From Pararhizobium mangrovi (GTDB lineage: Bacteria; Pseudomonadota; Alphaproteobacteria; Rhizobiales; Rhizobiaceae), in the NCBI RefSeq assembly GCF_006516965.1, contig NZ_VHLH01000023.1, forward strand, positions 1-64,000: a DNA stretch of 64,000 nucleotides, given 5' to 3'. Below, piece after piece: positions 8,037 to 17,517 of this stretch (its first letter is position 1; every line of letters begins with the position of its first letter). A model generated the notes under the pieces. It searched no databases. It was not told where the DNA came from and saw only the letters and a list, made by a program, of their open reading frames with translations. The position numbers and the translations under genes were made by a program.

Positions 8037-9092
8037 TCAGGACTTGTTGTCGGCGGCAGCGCTGCGCGCCTGCTTCAGCCAACCGTCGACCTCGTCCTGA
8101 TGATCGCCGATCCACTGCTTGGCCTGCTTCTCGAGATCCTGCGGACTGTCGGCGCCGTTGTTCATCTTGGCGTTCTGGGCAAAGATGTCCTCGACCGGGA
8201 TCGAGACGTTCTGCAGCAGCGACTTGACGGCCGGGTTGTCCTTCAGGAACTTAGTGTTGGCCACGGGCCGGATATCGTTGGCCGGCAGGCCCATCATGCA
8301 CGGATCGTCGGAACAGCCGGTGACGTTCTTGACCTTCGCGGCGTCGGCAAGATCGCTCTGCGCCTTCGGCAGCTTCGTTTCCTTGACCTGCAGCCAGACG
8401 ACGTCCTTGCCGGGCTTCAGTTCGCCCACGGTCCAGTTCGGCGTCCACGTATAGAAGATAACCGGCTTGCCGTTCTTGAAGCGGGCGAGCGTGTCGGCCA
8501 TCGCCGCCGCGTAACCGGCCGTCGACAGGTCGACATTGTCGGCCACCCCATAGTGCTTCATCTGGTATTCGATGATGTTCTGGCATTCCCAGCCGGGCGG
8601 GCAGGAAACCATGTTCGCCTTGCCGTCGCCCGTCGAATCGAACAGCTTGGCGATCTTGTCCTTCTGCAGGTCGCTGACATACTTGATGTCGTACTTGTCG
8701 GCCGTCTTCTTGTCGATCAGATAGCCCTGGAGCGCGCCGCCCTTGGCCACGTAGCCGATGTTCTGCGCGCGACCGTTGAAATTGTCCTCGAAGGGGTTCT
8801 GGTTGGGAAACCAGCCATTGACCCACAGGTCCATGTCGCCCTGGGCGACCGCCTGATAGAAGGCGGCATTCTGCAGCGTGGTGACCCGGCTGACATCGTA
8901 GCCGAGCTTCTGGAAGAGCTGCTTGTAGACTTCGGCCTGCCACCAGCCCGTATCCCAGTTGGCCCGCGCCATCTTGATCGTCGTGCCCTCGCCGGGCTTC
9001 GCGTTGTCCTTGGCGGCGGCGCCAGCGGGCACGGCAAAAGCCATGCTTGCGGCGGCGAGCGCCATCGTGGTCGTGCGAAGAATGGAATGCAT
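8037..9092 (-). CDS. proX: Glycine betaine/proline-type ABC transporter substrate-binding protein
   Basis: The 351-residue product begins with a Sec signal peptide (to about residue 27, VPAGAAAKD). The OpuAC/ProX fold follows, with MARANWDTGWWQAEVYKQL, WVNGWFPNQN and YTWTPNWTVG; the Trp-rich segments typically form the aromatic box binding quaternary amines. Family length is about 330-350. No ATPase or permease is adjacent, so it either serves a transporter encoded elsewhere or was separated from its operon. The ligand could be betaine, proline betaine, choline or another osmolyte; proX is a family-level name here. Confidence 0.87.
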   Translation of the reverse strand: MHSILRTTTMALAAASMAFAVPAGAAAKDNAKPGEGTTIKMARANWDTGWWQAEVYKQLFQKLGYDVSRVTTLQNAAFYQAVAQGDMDLWVNGWFPNQNPFEDNFNGRAQNIGYVAKGGALQGYLIDKKTADKYDIKYVSDLQKDKIAKLFDSTGDGKANMVSCPPGWECQNIIEYQMKHYGVADNVDLSTAGYAAAMADTLARFKNGKPVIFYTWTPNWTVGELKPGKDVVWLQVKETKLPKAQSDLADAAKVKNVTGCSDDPCMMGLPANDIRPVANTKFLKDNPAVKSLLQNVSIPVEDIFAQNAKMNNGADSPQDLEKQAKQWIGDHQDEVDGWLKQARSAAADNKS

Positions 9093-9464
9093 GCGAAGTG
9101 TCCCCTTCGTTTACGGGTCGGAGGCGAAAAACCTCCGCTCAAGAAAACATGCCCTCGCGGCGGTGCGCGAAGACGTGAAACGATGCCGTTCGCGGCTTCC
9201 GGAGCGGGACCCCGGAAGTGCACGGCTCGTGAGGCAACGCGAGGGATTGCGTGAGGTTCACAATTTTCCCGGACATGCCGCTTTCAGCGGCGCCGCCGAC
9301 GGCCACGTTCGCCGCGACGGATCGAATAGCCGGTCGCTCGAAGAGTTCGCCGGCGCTCGGGAAAGGCCCGGCTCGCAGTCTTCTTCGGTGAGCCGGCGCG
9401 CGACCCGAATGCCGCGGTCGCGAACCGCGATCGAGGGCATTTCCAAGCCGGCGAAACAGTTCTA
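9093..9464. other. Intergenic stretch without recognised gene
   Basis: I see no open frame with plausible codon use on either strand in this roughly 370-nt gap upstream of the binding-protein gene. It presumably holds that gene's promoter. A short GCCGCT/AGCGGC hairpin lies near 9275-9290. No riboswitch signature was found. Confidence 0.5.
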
Positions 9465-9485
9465 CCAGGCCATCGCGCGGCCTGG
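9465..9485 (-). terminator. Hairpin downstream of cobO
   Basis: CCAGGCC at 9465-9471 and GGCCTGG at 9479-9485 form a perfect 7-bp stem with a 7-nt loop, 7 nt past the cobO stop. It has no U-tract, but its position suits the end of the long cbtB-to-cobO transcript. Confidence 0.5.
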
Positions 9486-9492
9486 GAGCGCC

Positions 9493-10131
9493 CTAGAATT
9501 CGACGCCCACCTGCGCCTTCACACCCGATCGGAACGGATGCTTGACCATCGTCATCTCCGTCACGAGATCGGCGAACTCGACCAGCTCGTCCTTCGCGTT
9601 GCGTCCGGTGATGATCACATGCGTCATCTCCGGCTTACCTTTCAGCGTCTCGATCACCTCGTCGACCGGCAGATAGTCGTAGCGCAACACGATGTTGAGC
9701 TCGTCGAGCAGGACCATCCGGATCTCCGGGTCCATGATCATTTCCTTCGCCCGGTCCCAGGCAGCGCGCGCAGCGGCGATGTCGCGGCTTCGGTCCTGCG
9801 TTTCCCAAGTGAACCCCTCGCCCATCGTCGCCGTCGTCACGCGGTCCGGAAAGGCTTCGAGCACGGTCCGCTCGCCCGTTCCCCACTTGCCCTTCACGAA
9901 CTGGACGACACCGACCTTCATGCCGTTGCCGAGCGCGCGGAAGATCATGCCGAAGGCCGCCGTCGACTTGCCCTTGCCCTTGCCGGTGTGGACCATGACG
10001 AGGCCCTTCTCGATCGTCTTGGTGGCGATGATCTTGTCGCGCGCGGCCTTCTTCTTCTTCATCTTCTCCGCGTGGCGCGCGTTCAGTTCCTCTTCGGTGA
10101 GATTGGCGAGCTTTTCGGATTTTTCGGCCAT
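9493..10131 (-). CDS. cobO: Cob(I)yrinic acid a,c-diamide adenosyltransferase
   Basis: CobO (CobA/BtuR type) transfers the adenosyl group from ATP to the cobalt of reduced corrinoids in aerobic B12 synthesis. The 212-residue product has the P-loop variant VHTGKGKGKSTAAFG near residue 43, then GVVQFVKG, the VLLDELNIVLRYDYL strand and VIITGRNAKDELVEFADLVTEM at the C-terminus. The N-terminal Lys/Glu-rich helix is typical of alphaproteobacterial CobO. The start is ATG at 10131. It is the last gene of the riboswitch-led B12 operon. Confidence 0.96.
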   Translation of the reverse strand: MAEKSEKLANLTEEELNARHAEKMKKKKAARDKIIATKTIEKGLVMVHTGKGKGKSTAAFGMIFRALGNGMKVGVVQFVKGKWGTGERTVLEAFPDRVTTATMGEGFTWETQDRSRDIAAARAAWDRAKEMIMDPEIRMVLLDELNIVLRYDYLPVDEVIETLKGKPEMTHVIITGRNAKDELVEFADLVTEMTMVKHPFRSGVKAQVGVEF

Positions 10132-10195
10132 GGTCGTCTCTCTTCGTGTCGCGGATGGGTTCGTTCGATCCAAAGATCGCGCCGGTGTTCTGCCC

Positions 10196-10579
10196 CTACT
10201 CTCGTGTCGGCAAGCCGTCTCCGGGGATCATCCACGAAAGACGCTCTCCGTAAAAGTCGTGGCGCGTCGGCCGCAGATCCTCCGGCGCGTCGAAGGCCGC
10301 GACGTAGAGGTCGATCTGGTCGGCTCGTTCATCCGTACGGTAGGAAAGCGGCGAACCGCAGGTGCCGCAGAAGCTGCGCGTAACACCCGGCGAAGAGGCG
10401 TATTCCTGCAGCGTATCTCCTTGAAACACTACCCGTTCGGCCGGAAAGCAGGCGAAGACCGTTGCCGGCGAGGATGTCGCGCGGCGGCAGCTTTCGCAGT
10501 GGCAGAACGTCACCCATTCGGGCTCGCCTTCCGCGGTGAAGGTCGTGGCGCCGCACAGGCACCGTCCGGTTCGCGTCAC
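10196..10579 (-). CDS. GFA/CENP-V-like zinc-binding protein
   Basis: The 127-residue product has the GFA (Gfa-like, CENP-V/GFA domain) zinc pattern: GRCLCGATTF, FCHCESCRRAT and RSFCGTCGSPLSYRT, enough cysteines for two zinc sites. The family was named for glutathione-dependent formaldehyde activation, but most members have no proven activity. The start is GTG at 10579 and overlaps the cobN stop (GTGA), so it is translated with cobN; a role in cobalamin synthesis is not known. It may simply be a passenger of the operon. Confidence 0.85.
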   Translation of the reverse strand: MTRTGRCLCGATTFTAEGEPEWVTFCHCESCRRATSSPATVFACFPAERVVFQGDTLQEYASSPGVTRSFCGTCGSPLSYRTDERADQIDLYVAAFDAPEDLRPTRHDFYGERLSWMIPGDGLPTRE

Positions 10580-13500
10580 GGCGTTTCCTCCCCGTTTGCG
10601 ATGGCTCTCAGATCGAACTGCGCCGAATTCGACTTAGGCTGCCACAGGCCGCGCTCGATCGCCTCGGCAAGCCGGTCGGCCATCTCTTTCAGCGCCGCCG
10701 GGTTCTTCTCTTCCATGAATGCGCGAACCCGCTCGTCTCCGACGAAGGCCTGATAGACCGCCTCGAAGTGATGGTCGCGCACGGCCCCCGTCGTCGCGGA
10801 AAAGGCGAAGAGGTAATCGACGGTCGCCGCGATCTCGAAGGCGCCCTTGTAGCCGTGGCGCATGACGCCATCGATCCATTTCGGATTGACGACCCGCCCG
10901 CGCACCACGCGCCCGATCTCCTCTTCCAGCGACCGGATCACGGGGCGTTCGGGCCGCGAATGATCGTTGTGATAGACCGGCGGGCGCGTACCCCTCATCG
11001 CCTCGACGGCGGCCGTCATGCCGCCTTCGAACTGGTAGTAGTCATCGGAATCGAGGAGATCGTGCTCGCGATTGTCCTGGTTGTGGACGACGGCTTCAAG
11101 CGAGCCGAGCCGGGCCTCGAAGGCGCCGCGTTCCGGCTCGCCCTCGCTACCGGCCCCATAGGCGTAGGAGCCCCAGACCATGTAGGCCTCGGCGAGATCA
11201 CCGCGCTCGTCCCAGCCCTTCTCGTCGATCAGCGCCTGCAGTCCGGCCCCGTATGCACCGGGCTTGGAGCCGAAGACGCGGTGGCCGGACCGGCGCTCGG
11301 CTTCGCCCGCCTCCGTCCCCTCGGCCTCCAGCGCGGCCCGCTCGGCCCGCATGCGCTCGGCAATCGGGTTTTCGCCCTCGTTCTCATCGAGTGCACCGAT
11401 GGCGCGCACCGCGCGATCGAAAAGCGCGATCTGGTCCGGGAACGCGTCGCGGAAGAAGCCGGAGATGCGCAGCGTGACGTCGACGCGCGGCCGTCCGAGC
11501 GTCGCCGGAGGAATGATCTCGTAGCCCGTCACCCGGCGCGAGGTGTGGTCCCAAACCGGTTTCGCGCCGATCAGCGCCATCGCCTGCGCGATGTCGTCAC
11601 CGCCGGTGCGCATGTTGGACGTACCCCACGCCGTCAGCCCGAAGGAGGACGGCCAGTCGCCATGCTCCTGCGTGTAGCGCGCGACAAGCATCTCGGCTGA
11701 TTTCCGGCCGAGCTCCCAGGCAGCCGGTGTCGGCACCGACCGACTGTCGACGGAATAGAAGTTGCGCCCCGTCGGCAACACGTCCGGCCGCCCCCGCGTC
11801 GGCGCGCCCGAAGGCCCGGGCGGCACGAAGCGACCGGCAAGGCCGGTGAGCAGCCCTTCGATCTCCGCAGGGCCGGAGCGGACGATCGACGGCTTGATGC
11901 GCGTTTCGATCGCTTCGAGCACGGCGCGCGTGGCCATCCAGTCCGCCGGACAGGCCGTTTCGCCCGCGACGAGCTTCGCCGCCAGAAGCTCGATGCGCTC
12001 GACGGTATCGCCCGCCGTCCGCCATGGATCGTCGCCAAGATTGGCGAGAATGGCCGGGCGCAGGCCGCGCCACGGCTGTGCCATGTCGCAATCCAGCGGA
12101 TCGAACGCCTCGGCGCCCGATCTCTCCCCTTGCTGGGGAGATGTCGGCGAAGCCGACAGAGGGGGGTGAACCCTCTCCGCACGATCGCCAACCGCAGCAC
12201 TTGTCGCAACCTGCCCCCCTCTGCCCTGCCGGGCATCTCCCCCGCATGGGGGGAGATCGGGTGTGGCGGATGCTTCGGCGTTGCGGGAGCGCGAGGAACT
12301 TGCGCCGGCCCCCCCATCCGTCTCGCTGCGCGAGCCACCCTCTCCCCGTTGGGGCGAGGGGGTCGTGCGGCCAGCGCTCCGCTCCCCCTTCTCCCCACCG
12401 GGGAGAAGGTGGCCCGAAGGGTCGGATGAGGGGCTGAGCCCCAGGTCCCCGGCGATCGCTCGCTGAAGGCTCGCCTCCCCGGCCGCATTTCCACGCGGCA
12501 CGCGCGCGAGGGCGACGGTCAGGTCCGTCAGCAACCGGCCCTCCGGCGCGCGGCCGAAGATATGCAGGCCGTCGCGGATCTGCACTTCCTTCAGATCGCA
12601 GAGATAGGCGTCGAGCTTTTCGAGCGCGGTGTCGTCGGCCTCGCCGGCCGCGATGCCCGCATCGGCATCCAGCCCCGTGTCGCGGATGAGATCGAGGATC
12701 TGGCCCCTGAGCAACCGCAACCGCCGCGGATCGTTGCCGGACGCTTCGTAATACTCGTCGACCAGCGCCTCGAGATCCCTCAGCACGCCGTAGCTTTCCG
12801 CGCGGGTGAGCGGCGGTGTCAGGTGGTCGATGACGACGGCGGCGGTGCGGCGCTTGGCCTGCGTGCCCTCACCCGGATCGTTCACGATGAAGGGATAGAG
12901 CTGCGGCACGGGACCATAGACGGCCTCCGGATAGCAAGTCTCCGACAGCGCCAGTGCCTTGCCGGGCAGCCACTCCAGATTGCCGTGCTTGCCCATATGG
13001 ACGATGGCGTGCACGCCACAGGTCTCGCGCAGATAGGCGTAGAAGGCGAGATAGCCGTGCGGCGGCACGAGGTCAGGCGAATGGTAGGTTTCCTTCGGGT
13101 CGATGTTGTAGCCACGCGCGGGCTGGACGCCGATCAGCGTCTCGCCGAAGCGAGCGAGCGGCAGGCAAAAGCGCCCCTCGGCAACGAAGGGATCGTCGAC
13201 CGGATCGTCCCAGCGATCGGTGACTTCGTCTCGAACGCGCTCGGGAAGCGTTGCGAAGAACGCCCGGTAGGCGTCGAGCGACATCGTTTCGCGGATCTCG
13301 CGCGCATCGATGGCGGCGTTGGTCGGGCCGGCCATCAGATGAGCGATCAGCGCATCGCCATCTGCCGGCAGGTCGGCGACCGGGTAGCCCTCGGCGGCCA
13401 TCGCCCGTAGCGCCTCGATGGTGCCGGCCGGCGTGTCGAGGCCGACGCCGTTGCCGAGCCGGCCGTCGCGGTTGGGGTAGTTGGCAAGCACGACGGCGAC

Positions 13501-14832
13501 CCGGCGCCGGGCTGCCGGCGTGCGCGACAACCGCGCCCAGTTCGCCGCAAGCCGCGCGACGAAGCGGCAGCGACCGGCGTCCGGCTCGTGCGCGACGATG
13601 TTCGCCTCGGTCGCCGCGTCGTAACGGGCGGCCGACTTGAAGGAGACCGCGCGGGTCAGCACCCGCCCGTCGACCTCCGGCAGCGCAACGTTCATGGCTA
13701 GGTCGCGTGCCGCAAGACCCTGCGCCGAGGTTTCCCAAGCTTCGTGCGCAGAAGCGGAGAAGACGGCCTGAAGCACGGGCGCGCCCGCCTCGTCGAGCAC
13801 GGTGGGCGTTCGTTCGCCGCCCGGCGCGGAAACGGCAAAGCCGGTGGCGTTGACGACGACGTCAGGCGGGGTGCGGGCGAAGAGCGTGCGCAGCGTGTCG
13901 ACGGAGACCGGGTCCTTGAGGCTGGCGACGAAGACCGGCAGCGCGCGCATGCCCTCGGCTTCGAGCGCCCGGCACAGTGCCTCGACCGGCTCCGTCTGTC
14001 CGGATTGGACGAGCGCGCGGTAGAAGCACACCGCGACGGTCGGCTTGGTCTCCTCCGTTGCGATCCCGATCGAGGATGATGCGGCTTCAGCGGAAGATGC
14101 GTGGGCTTTGGCTTGTGGAGACGTGCCCCCCTCTGCCCTGGCGGGCATCTCCCCCGCAAGGGGGGAGATCGGAAGTGGCGAGGCCTGGGCTTTATCCGAT
14201 CGAAGAGTGTGGTCAACATCACCCCCTCCCGCGCCTTCGGCGCGAACTTTCCCATTCAAGAGGGAGGTCCATGCCTGTGGTACGGCCTCCGCGCGATCCC
14301 ATAGGCCTGCCTTCAGCAGGGGCGCCGCGGTCCCCGGCTTTTCGCCGCCTTCGATCAGGGCTACGCAATAATCCAGAAACGCGGTCGCATTCGCCGGACC
14401 GCCCTCGATCAGGTAATGCCAAAGCGCTTCCCGGTCGTTCGCATCCACCGTCGAGAACGCGGCCAGCCCCTCGTCCGGCTTGTCGTCGCCGGGCAGCACG
14501 GCGAGCGCGATCCTGTGCGTGACGGCAGCGGCGTGAAGCGCTTCCAGCGCGTAGGCGAAATAGCTGGCGCCGCCGAGGGCGCGCACGACGATCAGGCGGG
14601 CATGGCGGGCGGTGCGCTCGACATAAGTGTCGACCGACATCGGATGCTTGAGCTGCATCAGGCTCGCGAGCCGGAGCGACGGGCGCGACCCCTCCTGCCC
14701 CTGCGCGGCAGCGAGCGAGGCGAGTTCGGTGTCGGCTGCGGACAGCACGCAGACGTCACCCGGCGTCTGGCCGAGATCGATGGCCTCTTCGCCGTCGGCG
14801 ATCGTGCCTTTCTGGGCTAGGAGCAGGTGCAT
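10576..14832 (-). CDS. cobN: Cobaltochelatase subunit CobN with two repeat-derived insertions
   Basis: CobN is the large subunit of the ATP-dependent aerobic cobaltochelatase, which inserts Co2+ into hydrogenobyrinic acid a,c-diamide with CobS and CobT. The product is 1418 residues, roughly 150 more than I expect for the family. The excess is two low-complexity stretches, about residues 195-262 and 790-910, made from palindromic DNA repeats. Family blocks are otherwise intact: HMGKHGNLEWLPGKALALS, VDSRSVPTPAAWELG, AWGTSNMRTGGDDIAQAMAL, MVWGSYAYGAGSEG and NPKWIDGVMRHGYKGAFEIA. The stop overlaps the next gene. The ATG at 14832 follows a 339-nt repeat-containing gap after cobW. Confidence 0.96.
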   Translation of the reverse strand: MHLLLAQKGTIADGEEAIDLGQTPGDVCVLSAADTELASLAAAQGQEGSRPSLRLASLMQLKHPMSVDTYVERTARHARLIVVRALGGASYFAYALEALHAAAVTHRIALAVLPGDDKPDEGLAAFSTVDANDREALWHYLIEGGPANATAFLDYCVALIEGGEKPGTAAPLLKAGLWDRAEAVPQAWTSLLNGKVRAEGAGGGDVDHTLRSDKAQASPLPISPLAGEMPARAEGGTSPQAKAHASSAEAASSSIGIATEETKPTVAVCFYRALVQSGQTEPVEALCRALEAEGMRALPVFVASLKDPVSVDTLRTLFARTPPDVVVNATGFAVSAPGGERTPTVLDEAGAPVLQAVFSASAHEAWETSAQGLAARDLAMNVALPEVDGRVLTRAVSFKSAARYDAATEANIVAHEPDAGRCRFVARLAANWARLSRTPAARRRVAVVLANYPNRDGRLGNGVGLDTPAGTIEALRAMAAEGYPVADLPADGDALIAHLMAGPTNAAIDAREIRETMSLDAYRAFFATLPERVRDEVTDRWDDPVDDPFVAEGRFCLPLARFGETLIGVQPARGYNIDPKETYHSPDLVPPHGYLAFYAYLRETCGVHAIVHMGKHGNLEWLPGKALALSETCYPEAVYGPVPQLYPFIVNDPGEGTQAKRRTAAVVIDHLTPPLTRAESYGVLRDLEALVDEYYEASGNDPRRLRLLRGQILDLIRDTGLDADAGIAAGEADDTALEKLDAYLCDLKEVQIRDGLHIFGRAPEGRLLTDLTVALARVPRGNAAGEASLQRAIAGDLGLSPSSDPSGHLLPGGEKGERSAGRTTPSPQRGEGGSRSETDGGAGASSSRSRNAEASATPDLPPCGGDARQGRGGQVATSAAVGDRAERVHPPLSASPTSPQQGERSGAEAFDPLDCDMAQPWRGLRPAILANLGDDPWRTAGDTVERIELLAAKLVAGETACPADWMATRAVLEAIETRIKPSIVRSGPAEIEGLLTGLAGRFVPPGPSGAPTRGRPDVLPTGRNFYSVDSRSVPTPAAWELGRKSAEMLVARYTQEHGDWPSSFGLTAWGTSNMRTGGDDIAQAMALIGAKPVWDHTSRRVTGYEIIPPATLGRPRVDVTLRISGFFRDAFPDQIALFDRAVRAIGALDENEGENPIAERMRAERAALEAEGTEAGEAERRSGHRVFGSKPGAYGAGLQALIDEKGWDERGDLAEAYMVWGSYAYGAGSEGEPERGAFEARLGSLEAVVHNQDNREHDLLDSDDYYQFEGGMTAAVEAMRGTRPPVYHNDHSRPERPVIRSLEEEIGRVVRGRVVNPKWIDGVMRHGYKGAFEIAATVDYLFAFSATTGAVRDHHFEAVYQAFVGDERVRAFMEEKNPAALKEMADRLAEAIERGLWQPKSNSAQFDLRAIANGEETP
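12116..12455. repeat. Cluster of palindromic repeats inside cobN
   Basis: At least three palindromic units lie in this coding stretch. One starts near 12118 (CTCTCCCCTTGCTGGGGAG core), one at 12213-12261 has the CCCCCCTCTGCCCTGCCGGG opening and a CTCCCCCCATGCGGGGGA type core (minus strand), and one near 12340-12440 has ACCTTCTCCCCGGTGGGGAG (minus strand). Units of this kind are widespread between genes in Hyphomicrobiales. Here they are translated as a Gly/Ser/Pro/Arg-rich stretch. Confidence 0.8.
14124..14173. repeat. Palindromic repeat unit inside cobN (first insertion)
   Basis: This unit is nearly identical to the one at 12213-12261: both start CCCCCCTCTGCCCT, share CGGGCATCTCCCCCGCA and end in GGGGGGAGATCGG. 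It is read in a different frame from the second copy. Translated here it gives PISPLAGEMPARAEGG, flanked by Ala/Ser-rich filler. Confidence 0.8.
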
Positions 14833-14917
14833 GGTCTCGGTGTGTCCGGTGCCTCTATGGTTGGTTCGGTGGGTTGCGCTTCTGACGACCCATCCACGCT
14901 CGTCGACGGGATGCGGG

Positions 14918-15157
14918 GTTGGATACTCGGGTCAGGCCCGAGCATGACGGGCGGAGAGGCTATGGCTTCCGCCGTAGCTCAGCATCCCGTCTCGCCCGCC
15001 GCAGTGCCTTCCAGGATCGTTCTAACCCAGTCGTTGCTACCCTATCCGGCGTCATCCCGCCCCCCTCTGCGTCATCCTAGGGCTTGACCCTAGGATCCAA
15101 CCACGCACGTCGCGCGGATGGTGGGTTAGATGCTCGGGTCGAGCCCGAGCATGACGG
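14918..15157. repeat. Interspersed palindromes in the cobW-cobN gap
   Basis: The 339-nt gap between cobW and cobN holds no credible gene. It carries TACTCGGGTCAGGCCCGAGC near 14923, GTCATCCTAGGGCTTGACCC near 15072 (with its arm TAGGATCC) and TGCTCGGGTCGAGCCCGAGC near 15131. Each is an imperfect inverted repeat, two ending in GCATGACGG. They look like members of one dispersed family. Whether cobN is co-transcribed with cobW through this gap is not certain. Confidence 0.7.
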
Positions 15158-15171
15158 TTGAAACAGCTTAC

Positions 15172-16248
15172 CTACGCCGCTTCGGCCTCCTCCAGCGCAC
15201 CGGCGATCGCATCCCGCACAGCCTGTTCGTCCATCTCCGAAAGCCCGATGACCACCAGTCGCGTCGCGCGCGTTTCGGCCGGTGTCCATGGACGGTCAAA
15301 ATAATGGTCGATGCGGCTGCCGACGGCCTGCACGACGAGGCGCATCGGCTTTCCGGGAACGTCGACGAAGCCTTTGAGCCGGAGGATGTCGTGCGCGTCG
15401 ATCACGCCCTGCAGGCGCTCGGCGAAGGCGGCCGGTGAAGCGACCGGACCGAGTTCGACGACGAAGCTCGCGAACTCGTCGTGGTCGTGCTCGGCGCCGT
15501 CTTCGTGTTCGAGTTCGTGATGCGACTTGCGGTTTTCGATGTCGGCTTCCGTGCCGACGCCGAGACCGAGCAGCACATCGGCCGGCACACGGCCATTGTG
15601 GGCTTCGATCAGTGTCGGCGTGCGGCGGGTCTTGCCCTCGATCTCGGCACGAACGGCAGAAAGGCCGTCGGAGTCCAGAAGATCGGCCTTGTTGAGGACG
15701 ATCAGATCCGCGGCGGTGAGCTGGTCCTCGAACAGTTCTTCGAGCGGGCTTTCGTGATCGAGCGACGGGTCGACCTCGCGCTGCGCGTCGACCTTCGACG
15801 GATCGTCGGCAAAGCGGCCGGCGGCGACCGCCGCGCTGTCGACGACCGTCACCACGCCGTCGACGGTGACCTGCGTCTTGATGCCCGGCCAGTTGAAGGC
15901 GGCGACGAGCGGCTGCGGCAAGGCGAGGCCGGAAGTCTCGATGACGATGTGGTCCGGCCGGTTCTCGCGCTGCAAGAGCTTTTCCATGGCGGGAATGAAG
16001 TCGTCGGCGACGGTGCAGCAAATGCAGCCATTCGTCAGTTCGACGATGTCGTCCTGCGTGCAGGTTTCGTCGCCGCAGCCGGCGAGCACCTCGCCGTCGA
16101 CGCCGAGGTCGCCGAACTCGTTGACGATAAGCGCGATCCGCCGGCCGCCGGCATGGCCTAGCATGTGGCGGATCATGGTCGTCTTGCCGGAGCCGAGGAA
16201 GCCGGTGATGACGGTGGCGGGGATCTTCGCGGTGGTCGGCGTATTCAT
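15172..16248 (-). CDS. cobW: CobW-type GTPase of cobalamin biosynthesis
   Basis: CobW is a G3E-family P-loop GTPase metallochaperone thought to deliver cobalt to the chelatase. The 358-residue product shows Walker A GFLGSGKTT, the metal-binding NGCICCTVADD (CxCC), IVIETSGLALP, the guanine motif VLNKADLLD and a His/Asp/Glu-rich stretch HHELEHEDGAEHDHDEF before the C-terminal CobW_C domain. The start at ATG 16248 removes a 21-residue upstream stretch unlike the family. It follows cobP by 7 nt. Confidence 0.95.
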   Translation of the reverse strand: MNTPTTAKIPATVITGFLGSGKTTMIRHMLGHAGGRRIALIVNEFGDLGVDGEVLAGCGDETCTQDDIVELTNGCICCTVADDFIPAMEKLLQRENRPDHIVIETSGLALPQPLVAAFNWPGIKTQVTVDGVVTVVDSAAVAAGRFADDPSKVDAQREVDPSLDHESPLEELFEDQLTAADLIVLNKADLLDSDGLSAVRAEIEGKTRRTPTLIEAHNGRVPADVLLGLGVGTEADIENRKSHHELEHEDGAEHDHDEFASFVVELGPVASPAAFAERLQGVIDAHDILRLKGFVDVPGKPMRLVVQAVGSRIDHYFDRPWTPAETRATRLVVIGLSEMDEQAVRDAIAGALEEAEAA

Positions 16249-16255
16249 GGCTGGA

Positions 16256-16777
16256 TCATCCCTTGAGCGTGAGTGGCAGGCCGGCCGCGATGAAGGTGAC
16301 GGTGTCGGCACGTGCGGCGATCGCCTGGTTCAGCCGGCCGGCGTGGTCGCGAAAGCGCCGCGCCATGGCGTTGTCCGGCACGATGCCGAGGCCGACCTCG
16401 TTGGCGACGAGGATCGCCGGGCCGTTCAACGCGGCAACGGCGGCGACCAGCGCATCGATTTCGGCATCCATGTCCGCCTCGGCGATCATGCGGTTCGTCA
16501 GCCACAGCGTCAGGCAGTCGACGAGGAGGATGCGCCTCTCGCCGGCCTCCGCCGAGAGCGTACCGGCAAGATCCGCCGGTGCCTCGATGGTGGTCCATGC
16601 CGGTCCGCGACGCGCACGATGGGTGGCGATGCGCTCCGTCATCTCGTCGTCGAGCGCCTGGGCGGTGGCGATGTAGAGGGGAGCGAGCCCCGTTTCCGCG
16701 ACGCATCGTTCGGCGAAGGCCGACTTGCCGGAACGCGCGCCGCCGAGGACGAGGTGCGTTCCGGTTCGCGCCGTCAC
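16256..16777 (-). CDS. cobP: Adenosylcobinamide kinase / adenosylcobinamide-phosphate guanylyltransferase
   Basis: CobP (CobU) phosphorylates adenosylcobinamide and adds GMP in nucleotide-loop assembly. The 173-residue product has the P-loop LVLGGARSGKSAFAE, then YIATAQALDDEMTERIATHRARRG (with the guanylylated His region), ILLVDCLTLWLTN and ANEVGLGIVPDN, all hallmark blocks. The start is GTG at 16777, overlapping the cbtA stop as GTGA. Confidence 0.96.
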   Translation of the reverse strand: MTARTGTHLVLGGARSGKSAFAERCVAETGLAPLYIATAQALDDEMTERIATHRARRGPAWTTIEAPADLAGTLSAEAGERRILLVDCLTLWLTNRMIAEADMDAEIDALVAAVAALNGPAILVANEVGLGIVPDNAMARRFRDHAGRLNQAIAARADTVTFIAAGLPLTLKG

Positions 16778-17517
16778 GACGCCCTCGCCGACGCCTCTTC
16801 GGTGGCGAAGCGTTCGGTGAAGAGGCCCATCAGCCCGCCGAGCACCAGCCAGAAGAAGAGCGTCGTCGCCAGCGCCGAGGCCGCGAAGGCGGCGGCGAGG
16901 CCGGCCGGCACCGGGCTTTCATGGGTCGGCGGCTGTGGCGCGCCGACGATCTGCGGTGCAGCGACGAGAACGACGCCGAGCGCCTTCGCCCACCCCTCCG
17001 GCCGCATGGCCATGAGGTAGATCCCGGCGCCAGACGCCGCGACGGTGGAAAGCCACCAGATCTGGCGAGCCGTCAGGTCGGCGGCGGGCATGGCGGGCAG
17101 TTCCGGCGGCAGGCCGAAAGCCGGCAGGAGGTGGACGGCGAGCCATGCGCCCGCCCCCCACAACACTCCGGTGCGTGCGGTGATCGTGTTGCCGGTCAGG
17201 AGAACGACGGCGGCCAGAAGCAGCGCGTAGCCGGCGCCAACGACGAGGTTCGCCATGATCGAGCCGGCGTAGCGGTCGACGCCGAAGAGCCTCGTGTTGC
17301 TCCCGTCATGGCCGTGCGCCTCGCCGGAATGGGCGTAGGCGGGCGTGACGAGGTGCAGACCGCCGGGCGTTTGCATGGAAGCGGCATCATGGCCGCCGTT
17401 TTCGTAGATTTCCGCGTGTTCGATCAGCGGAACGAGTCTTGCCTGCTGGACGCCCGTCATCAGGACGCCCGCGATCAGGCCGGCCGCGATTACGGCCAAC
17501 AGCATGCGTGCGATCAT
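16774..17517 (-). CDS. cbtA: CbtA-type cobalt transporter subunit
   Basis: The 247-residue membrane protein is the predicted cobalt transporter CbtA, found under B12 riboswitches in alphaproteobacteria. About five or six hydrophobic segments are seen: residues 2-22, 90-112, 118-136, 150-170, 178-195 and 210-235. A periplasmic loop near residues 30-80 is rich in His, Asp and Glu (AHSGEAHGHDG), suited to metal binding. It lies directly downstream of cbtB in the riboswitch operon. Confidence 0.92.
   Translation of the reverse strand: MIARMLLAVIAAGLIAGVLMTGVQQARLVPLIEHAEIYENGGHDAASMQTPGGLHLVTPAYAHSGEAHGHDGSNTRLFGVDRYAGSIMANLVVGAGYALLLAAVVLLTGNTITARTGVLWGAGAWLAVHLLPAFGLPPELPAMPAADLTARQIWWLSTVAASGAGIYLMAMRPEGWAKALGVVLVAAPQIVGAPQPPTHESPVPAGLAAAFAASALATTLFFWLVLGGLMGLFTERFATEEASARAS

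Follow-up and report, generated by a model that had tools for sequence, protein, structure and literature searches.

Hairpin-forming DNA repeats appear to have entered the same two linkers of CobN repeatedly in rhizobia-like bacteria

Sequence comparison indicates that hairpin-forming DNA repeats have entered the same two linkers of the cobaltochelatase subunit CobN repeatedly, and in frame, in many rhizobia-like bacteria. The gene considered here is cobN of Pararhizobium mangrovi, carried on a 64,000-nucleotide stretch of DNA (the window), for which an earlier note had proposed that palindromic repeats are inserted into the coding sequence. This proposal is borne out by uninserted relatives with sharp edges, by the scatter of the insertions on the tree, by covariation within the hairpin, and by a frame that stays open throughout. 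Proteins of this cell probably contain additional segments derived from mobile DNA (translation is inferred; there is no proteomic evidence).

Results

Repeat units in the window cobN

The window CobN scores 1707.8 bits against TIGR02257 (curated cut-off 822.05), with the match split into two stretches, and the solved CobN 9uk9 aligns to it in three stretches that are interrupted at the two enlarged linkers (Table 1). These linkers compare with medians of 22 aa (site 1) and 7 aa (site 2) in unexpanded relatives, giving net gains of about 65 and 108 aa, respectively. Upstream of cobN on the same strand lie cobW (15172-16311) and a CbtA gene (16774-17517).

The earlier note had placed two near-identical units in cobN, read in different frames while the gene stays open; the positions were right, as were the different frames and the single open frame. 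The two units form a 69-bp pair (12200-12268 and 14112-14180) of 88% identity, and a 30-bp core (up to three mismatches) occurs twice in the window, compared with a mean of 0.00 in 100 dinucleotide shuffles, none of which contained two. They belong to a repeat termed F1. Its arm, some 46 bp long, has the potential to form two hairpins, terminates in a G run and is frequently found in inverted pairs; judged by eye, the arm extends from about GATCTCC to CAGAGGGGGG. The enlargement of the second insertion to about 115 residues by further units was also described correctly, the additional units being a third F1 arm in inverted orientation and two units of a second palindrome, F2. At site 1, the insertion exceeds the one unit originally named there. 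By eye, its start shows a pair of hairpin-like segments plus a G run, ordered as in F1, from which a diverged arm is inferred as a possibility. Folding of the five units in the window gave z-scores of −1.49, −1.51, −2.49, −1.53 and 0.44, and the stretch of F2 unit 2, which has the last of these values, folds no better than its shuffles. No Rfam match at the gathering score was obtained over 9000-16500.

Table 1. Features of cobN and its repeat units, in window coordinates
Feature	Position	Strand	Basis
cobN, cobaltochelatase subunit CobN, 1418 aa, two enlarged linkers	10576..14832	-	TIGR02257, single open frame
Site 1 linker, aa 177-263, 87 aa	14044..14304	-	111-CobN alignment; 9uk9 alignment break at 186, restart 262
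Possible diverged F1-like arm, start of site 1	14222..14269	-	By eye only, inference
F1 arm within site 1, read PISPLAGEMPARAEGG	14124..14173	-	Repeat comparison; predicted 9-bp hairpin, then second hairpin
Site 2 linker, aa 795-909, 115 aa	12106..12450	-	111-CobN alignment; 9uk9 alignment break at 800, restart 908
F2 palindrome, unit 1, CACCTTCTCCCC..GGGGAGAAGG, read SSDPSGHLLPGGEKGE	12372..12440	-	Near-identical readings twice in IleRS of window genome
F2 palindrome, unit 2, CCCTCGCCCC..GGGGAGAGGG, read SPQRGEGGSRSETDGG	12309..12362	-	Detected at 12338-12360; ends by eye
F1 arm within site 2, read PDLPPCGGDARQGRGG	12213..12261	-	Repeat comparison; rare frame, 2/37 forward arms
F1 arm, inverted, within site 2; cobN-strand reading HPPLSASPTSPQQGERS	12116..12170	+	Repeat comparison; fold z-score -2.49

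Palindromes also occur between cobW and cobN (14887-15157). Two of them start with CGTCAT, one on the minus strand (14920-14949) and one on the plus strand (15070-15099); the former is covered, and the latter touched, by a pair of 64-bp direct repeats (14887-14950 and 15094-15157; 81% identity). These intergenic palindromes resemble the F4 repeats described below, which lie within cobN of another genome (G207, locus L142).

Insertions across relatives of CobN

An alignment of 111 CobN proteins was assembled from the window protein, 11 records of a named collection and 99 genomes of the window's family (a label that is itself inferred). By its named records, the set consists mostly of Rhizobiaceae, complemented by a small number of other Alphaproteobacteria (L015-L017). 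Excluded were the short-type CobN of about 1100 aa (L157-L160 among them) and the partial or truncated CobN of G110, G092, G159 and G212, and L017, which is cut by its contig, was omitted at site 1 and from the tree. The alignment was the means suggested in the earlier note for defining the insertion edges, and it reveals sharp edges at two sites. Among 75 protein-by-place cases of insertions of at least 12 aa relative to an uninserted reference, 72 fall at these sites: 36 proteins at reference residues 181-197 and 36 at residue 741, with two at residue 444 and one (16 aa) near the C-terminus. Four rows that appear separately at residue 181 duplicate proteins already included at 197 and were counted once.

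With expansion defined as at least 36 aa at site 1 and at least 18 aa at site 2, site 1 is expanded in 29/110 proteins and site 2 in 36/111, both sites in 25 and either or both in 40 of the 111; the longest linkers reach 182 aa (site 1) and 175 aa (site 2). In a rapidly built tree of the CobN core (110 rows, without the linker columns), 70 of the 110 proteins are unexpanded, and the minimum number of changes is 16 for site 1 and 20 for site 2, gains and losses pooled. The window row clusters with eight unexpanded rows at a support of 82, which is under the tool's starred level. Among the named records, the closest relatives belong to Rhizobium, Ciceribacter, Oricola and Rhizobiaceae without a genus name, in agreement with the earlier assignment to an order other than that of Rickettsia. 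Insertion would have been refuted had close relatives carried the same segments as conserved domains. This was not found; in relatives with insertions, the repeats at these places are mostly different ones, although close sisters can share them. An assembly error is an unlikely source of the inserts, because they recur in many separate assemblies.

Outside the two sites, the CobN of L145 (G168) has a 75-aa insertion at reference residue 444 that reads as an F1 pair, and a close relative, L093, carries 22 additional residues at this position; residue 444 is thus possibly a third, rare insertion place. Some short-type CobN contain an apparent extra stretch near profile position 480.

Content, frame and turnover of the linkers

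When the 65 expanded linkers were searched with loose motifs for five repeat families, 42 matched F1, 21 F2, 14 F3, nine F5 and two F4, and eight matched none of the five sets; one linker may count for several families, so the tallies overlap. F1, F2 and F3 have a CTCCCC/GGGGAG core in common and, judging from their sequences, may be related to one another. F4 fills both CobN sites in one genome only (L142), and it alone can clearly be told apart by sequence from the other repeats at these places, since F1-F3 share their core. Content can also differ between close sisters: it is not the same at site 1 of Rhizobium daejeonense (L011), Ciceribacter sichuanensis (L012) and R. cremeum (L018), for which a 500-aa core stretch is 95% identical in both of the pairs measured (two of three). 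At site 1 of L141, one arm and its spacer have apparently been lost in frame relative to L137, as if between GGGGGAGAT repeats. The loop of the left F1 arm at site 1 of L137 and L141 holds an apparent further, nested palindrome.

The coding frame is free of stops in 65/65 expanded linkers. Stops are present in the other frames in 38 and 59 linkers (sense) and in 43, 41 and 34 (antisense), about two thirds overall. The genes were found through long open frames, so that a broken gene would appear short; only L017 falls below 1200 aa. Forward F1 arms are distributed over the three frames as 33, 2 and 2 (n = 37) and reverse arms as 17, 16 and 0, counts that include shared ancestry. The idea that the units are stop-free by design was dropped, as mononucleotide shuffling of the F1 and F2 units yields sequences equally stop-free in six frames in 10-34% of cases.

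In 13 sister comparisons, the dN of the insert exceeded that of the core in all 13, with dN/dS values of 0.38-1.7 for inserts and 0.05-0.2 for cores. The dS of the insert was lower than that of the core in 11 of the 13; this may mean that the inserts are younger than the species split or that they are constrained as DNA. The comparisons were hand-chosen, the numbers are small and some of the alignments are poor.

Conservation and genomic distribution of the F1 hairpin

Given these fold z-scores of the window units, covariation provides the better evidence for a hairpin. Of 37 distinct arms, 36 have C-G, T-A or G-C as the outer pair of hairpin 2, compared with a shuffled mean of 17.5 and 0/2000 shuffles reaching 36. 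The 37 arms were drawn from 101 copies, and only arms with a 10-nt second hairpin were used. Pairing holds in 25/25 distinct cobN arms and in 18/19 from loci L161-L190. This covariation implies that the hairpin is kept as nucleic acid, and the F1-encoded peptide looks, by inference, like a by-product of the conserved hairpin.

A strict F1 pattern detected 2291 copies in 95 of 199 family genomes; the reversed-pattern control detected none. Strict F1 is present in 31/36 genomes with an expanded CobN versus 16/64 without (p = 4e-9). The 100 genomes that contributed a CobN sequence contain 1377 strict copies, of which 45 fall inside cobN versus about 1.1 if evenly spread, an approximately 41-fold excess. 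The expected value is rough, as it assumes a mean genome of 4.9 Mb, and related genomes are not independent. Both strict copies in the window genome are within cobN; with looser patterns, the proportion is 3/4 (wider gaps) or 2/4 (three mismatches). Two F1-rich genomes, G164 (85 strict copies) and G122 (63), have no expanded CobN linker.

Thirty F1 loci were retrieved, of which the 17 listed each come from a different genome. An inverted pair was present in 15 of the 30 retrieved loci, with 57-101 bp between the arms, and inspection by eye of these 15 paired elements revealed no target-site duplication. As a candidate for mobilization, Y1_Tnp was found in 22/199 genomes and is absent from the window genome. 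F1 is present in 11 of the 22 genomes with Y1_Tnp and in 84 of the 177 without (p = 0.83), so a Y1 transposase is unsupported as the general mover of F1; Y1_Tnp is somewhat commoner in F1-rich genomes (8/35 versus 14/164, p = 0.03), a weak excess.

Repeats in other genes

The isoleucyl-tRNA synthetase (IleRS) gene of the window genome (L150:2363-5692, G000:C17) contains two in-frame F2 insertions, one after HPLKG and one after MDKDL, with readings near-identical to those of F2 in cobN. This is the one clear IleRS of the genome, the next among the matches listed being 29% identical. Relatives lack such a repeat insertion in 21/22 cases at the first place and 22/23 at the second; L198 was dropped from this alignment (frame not found) and L214 covers the second place only. 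The exception is the IleRS of L203, in which both places are occupied: the first insertion contains F3 motifs, and the second gives no more than loose F5-like matches. In a few other relatives, the second place carries a loop of roughly 10 residues. A separate loop of IleRS is variable as well, with 12-35 extra aa in 12 of 23 relatives. The earlier note called CobN essential-looking. In the absence of essentiality data, 'essential' fits IleRS better; the label is weaker for CobN because the window genome encodes a second CobN-like (PF02514) protein. That protein (G000:C59:112039-115152) is an open frame of 1276 aa with 30-37% identity to the window CobN.

F1 occurs within other proteins too. 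In G013, a protein with biotin carboxylase and biotinyl domains carries an F1 pair in the region separating the two. A frame of at least 200 aa crosses the element in 12 of the 30 F1 loci (16 frames, all scanned), with a Pfam match in five of the 12. F1 lies between Pfam-matched parts of one protein in L167 (glyS beta) and L179 (UvrD helicase), and before the domain in L170 (FtsY), L185 (SLT_2) and L174 (FGase), for which the in-gene status is uncertain; all five placements rest on Pfam matches alone. An open frame on C44 (L151) was not counted as an in-gene case, as the element precedes the likely start (by eye). In L154 (G019:C6), an F1 pair apparently links two consecutive genes, for a peptide transporter permease and an ATPase, so that they form a single open frame.

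Properties of the inserts in the protein

Structure prediction was suggested in the earlier note as a check on whether the insertions fall in surface loops. An AlphaFold model of residues 1-1190 (12 sequences) has a mean pLDDT of 57.5. Residues 184-261 and 801-907 are below 50, with block means of 23-46, and the sole element listed within the inserts is a helix at 188-192. The conserved residues 1007-1135 are mostly at 26-39, and 502 of the 1190 residues are below 50. As conserved parts score nearly as low, the low pLDDT is weak evidence of insert disorder, which remains unproven. Order-promoting residues account for 9% of the site 2 insert and 17% of the site 1 insert, versus 30% of the core.

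Discussion

We consider it likely that mobile palindromic repeats inserted into cobN and persisted almost exclusively at two linkers that tolerate in-frame, stop-free inserts. The comparisons establish, at the level of sequence, two fixed places, scattered lineages, several repeat families, an open frame, fast protein change and covariation in the DNA hairpin; the steps between these observations are inferred. The hairpin repeats would copy around the genome by a transposition-like process, the mobilizing enzyme for which is unidentified. Most arrivals within genes would be lost, and those that arrive in frame in a tolerant linker would remain, since their removal must be in frame too. The linkers would then be translated and kept in the protein as flexible loops. 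Restriction to two places would reflect tolerance more than target choice, a preference that rests on the different contents found at the same places and is weakened by the core common to F1-F3.

The opposite emphasis, with the two places acting as DNA target hotspots for the mobilizing enzyme and tolerance being minor, draws on the strong concentration at two places and the high F1 density in cobN, and a single enzyme could serve F1, F2 and F3 through their common core. We judge it unlikely because F4, with its different sequence, is also at both places in L142, site 1 has three different contents in the sisters L011, L012 and L018, and such insertions are found at two other places in IleRS and at a third in the CobN of L145. 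Alternatively, the repeats may have been recruited, so that mRNA hairpins between domains, or the added peptide, help CobN folding or regulation. The two places are often filled jointly (25/29 site 1 cases), but genome-wide repeat load also predicts that both are filled; hairpin pairing is kept in the cobN copies, but it is likewise kept in loci L161-L190. Together with the majority of CobN that are unexpanded, the turnover of content between sister species and the possibility of in-frame loss (L141 versus L137), this makes recruitment rather improbable.

We give very little credence to removal of the inserts, whether before or during translation (bypassing or RNA excision) or afterwards (protein processing). 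Their large size and capacity to form hairpins would suit such a process, but removal at the RNA level does not demand that the frame be kept and stop-free, as it is in every expanded linker; protein cleavage is not addressed by this argument. Retention of translated inserts at tolerant linkers remains the preferred reading. A further and more tentative idea, possible although we do not lean towards it, is that the linkers are refuges for selfish palindromes. A copy in frame would outlive intergenic copies because only an in-frame event can remove it, and could preserve, perhaps even reseed, a nearly lost element; CobN would be a main refuge in the family, common to several repeat families.

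In-gene palindromes are already known from Rickettsia, Wolbachia, REP, ERIC and Neisseria repeats. Rickettsia and Wolbachia palindromic elements (RPE and WPE) are described as short repeats, in frame in conserved genes at solvent-exposed places (PMC3767692, PMC2229807); a common region of one gene is hit in both genera, and an ATGAC motif is described for some RPE (PMC3767692). The parallel with Rickettsia drawn in the earlier note holds for behaviour, as the cobN and IleRS repeats are also inserted within genes without breaking the frame, whereas kinship is not shown. The rhizobial repeats differ in that they are found in another order, have GC-rich arms of about 46 bp that are often in inverted pairs, and fill the same two linkers of one enzyme in many species. 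GTAG- or CGTC-tagged REP are small palindromes, often inverted dimers, some of them in genes and some genes being hit twice; in two Xanthomonas, recB carries REP at nearly the same position (PMC3733652). F1 arms differ in lacking a terminal GTAG or CGTC (judged by eye) and in a presence that does not follow Y1_Tnp, an association examined at the genome level only; by contrast, F4 in the cobN of L142 and its look-alike upstream of the window cobN begin with CGTC.

ERIC, YPAL and Correia elements are small repeats reported as fused in frame to genes of enterobacteria and Neisseria (PMC2229807). They have other sequences and occur in other bacteria, and recurrent filling of fixed linkers is not described in the portion available. 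Rhizobium-specific intergenic mosaic elements (RIME) are palindromic in structure. To judge from their title alone, they resemble the present repeats as mosaic repeats of rhizobia and differ in being called intergenic. Among the literature matches listed, which comprised the openings of abstracts, with subscription papers mostly outside reach, there was no rhizobial or CobN in-gene palindrome.

In the family of the window, which is largely free-living, filling, change and loss have recurred many times in the same two linkers of a single enzyme, with unexpanded sisters as controls. Such segments in proteins of the CobN and IleRS type should not be annotated as conserved domains. The CobN system lets one test how mobile DNA makes new protein stretches, what limits the survival of an insert, and whether genes shelter repeats.
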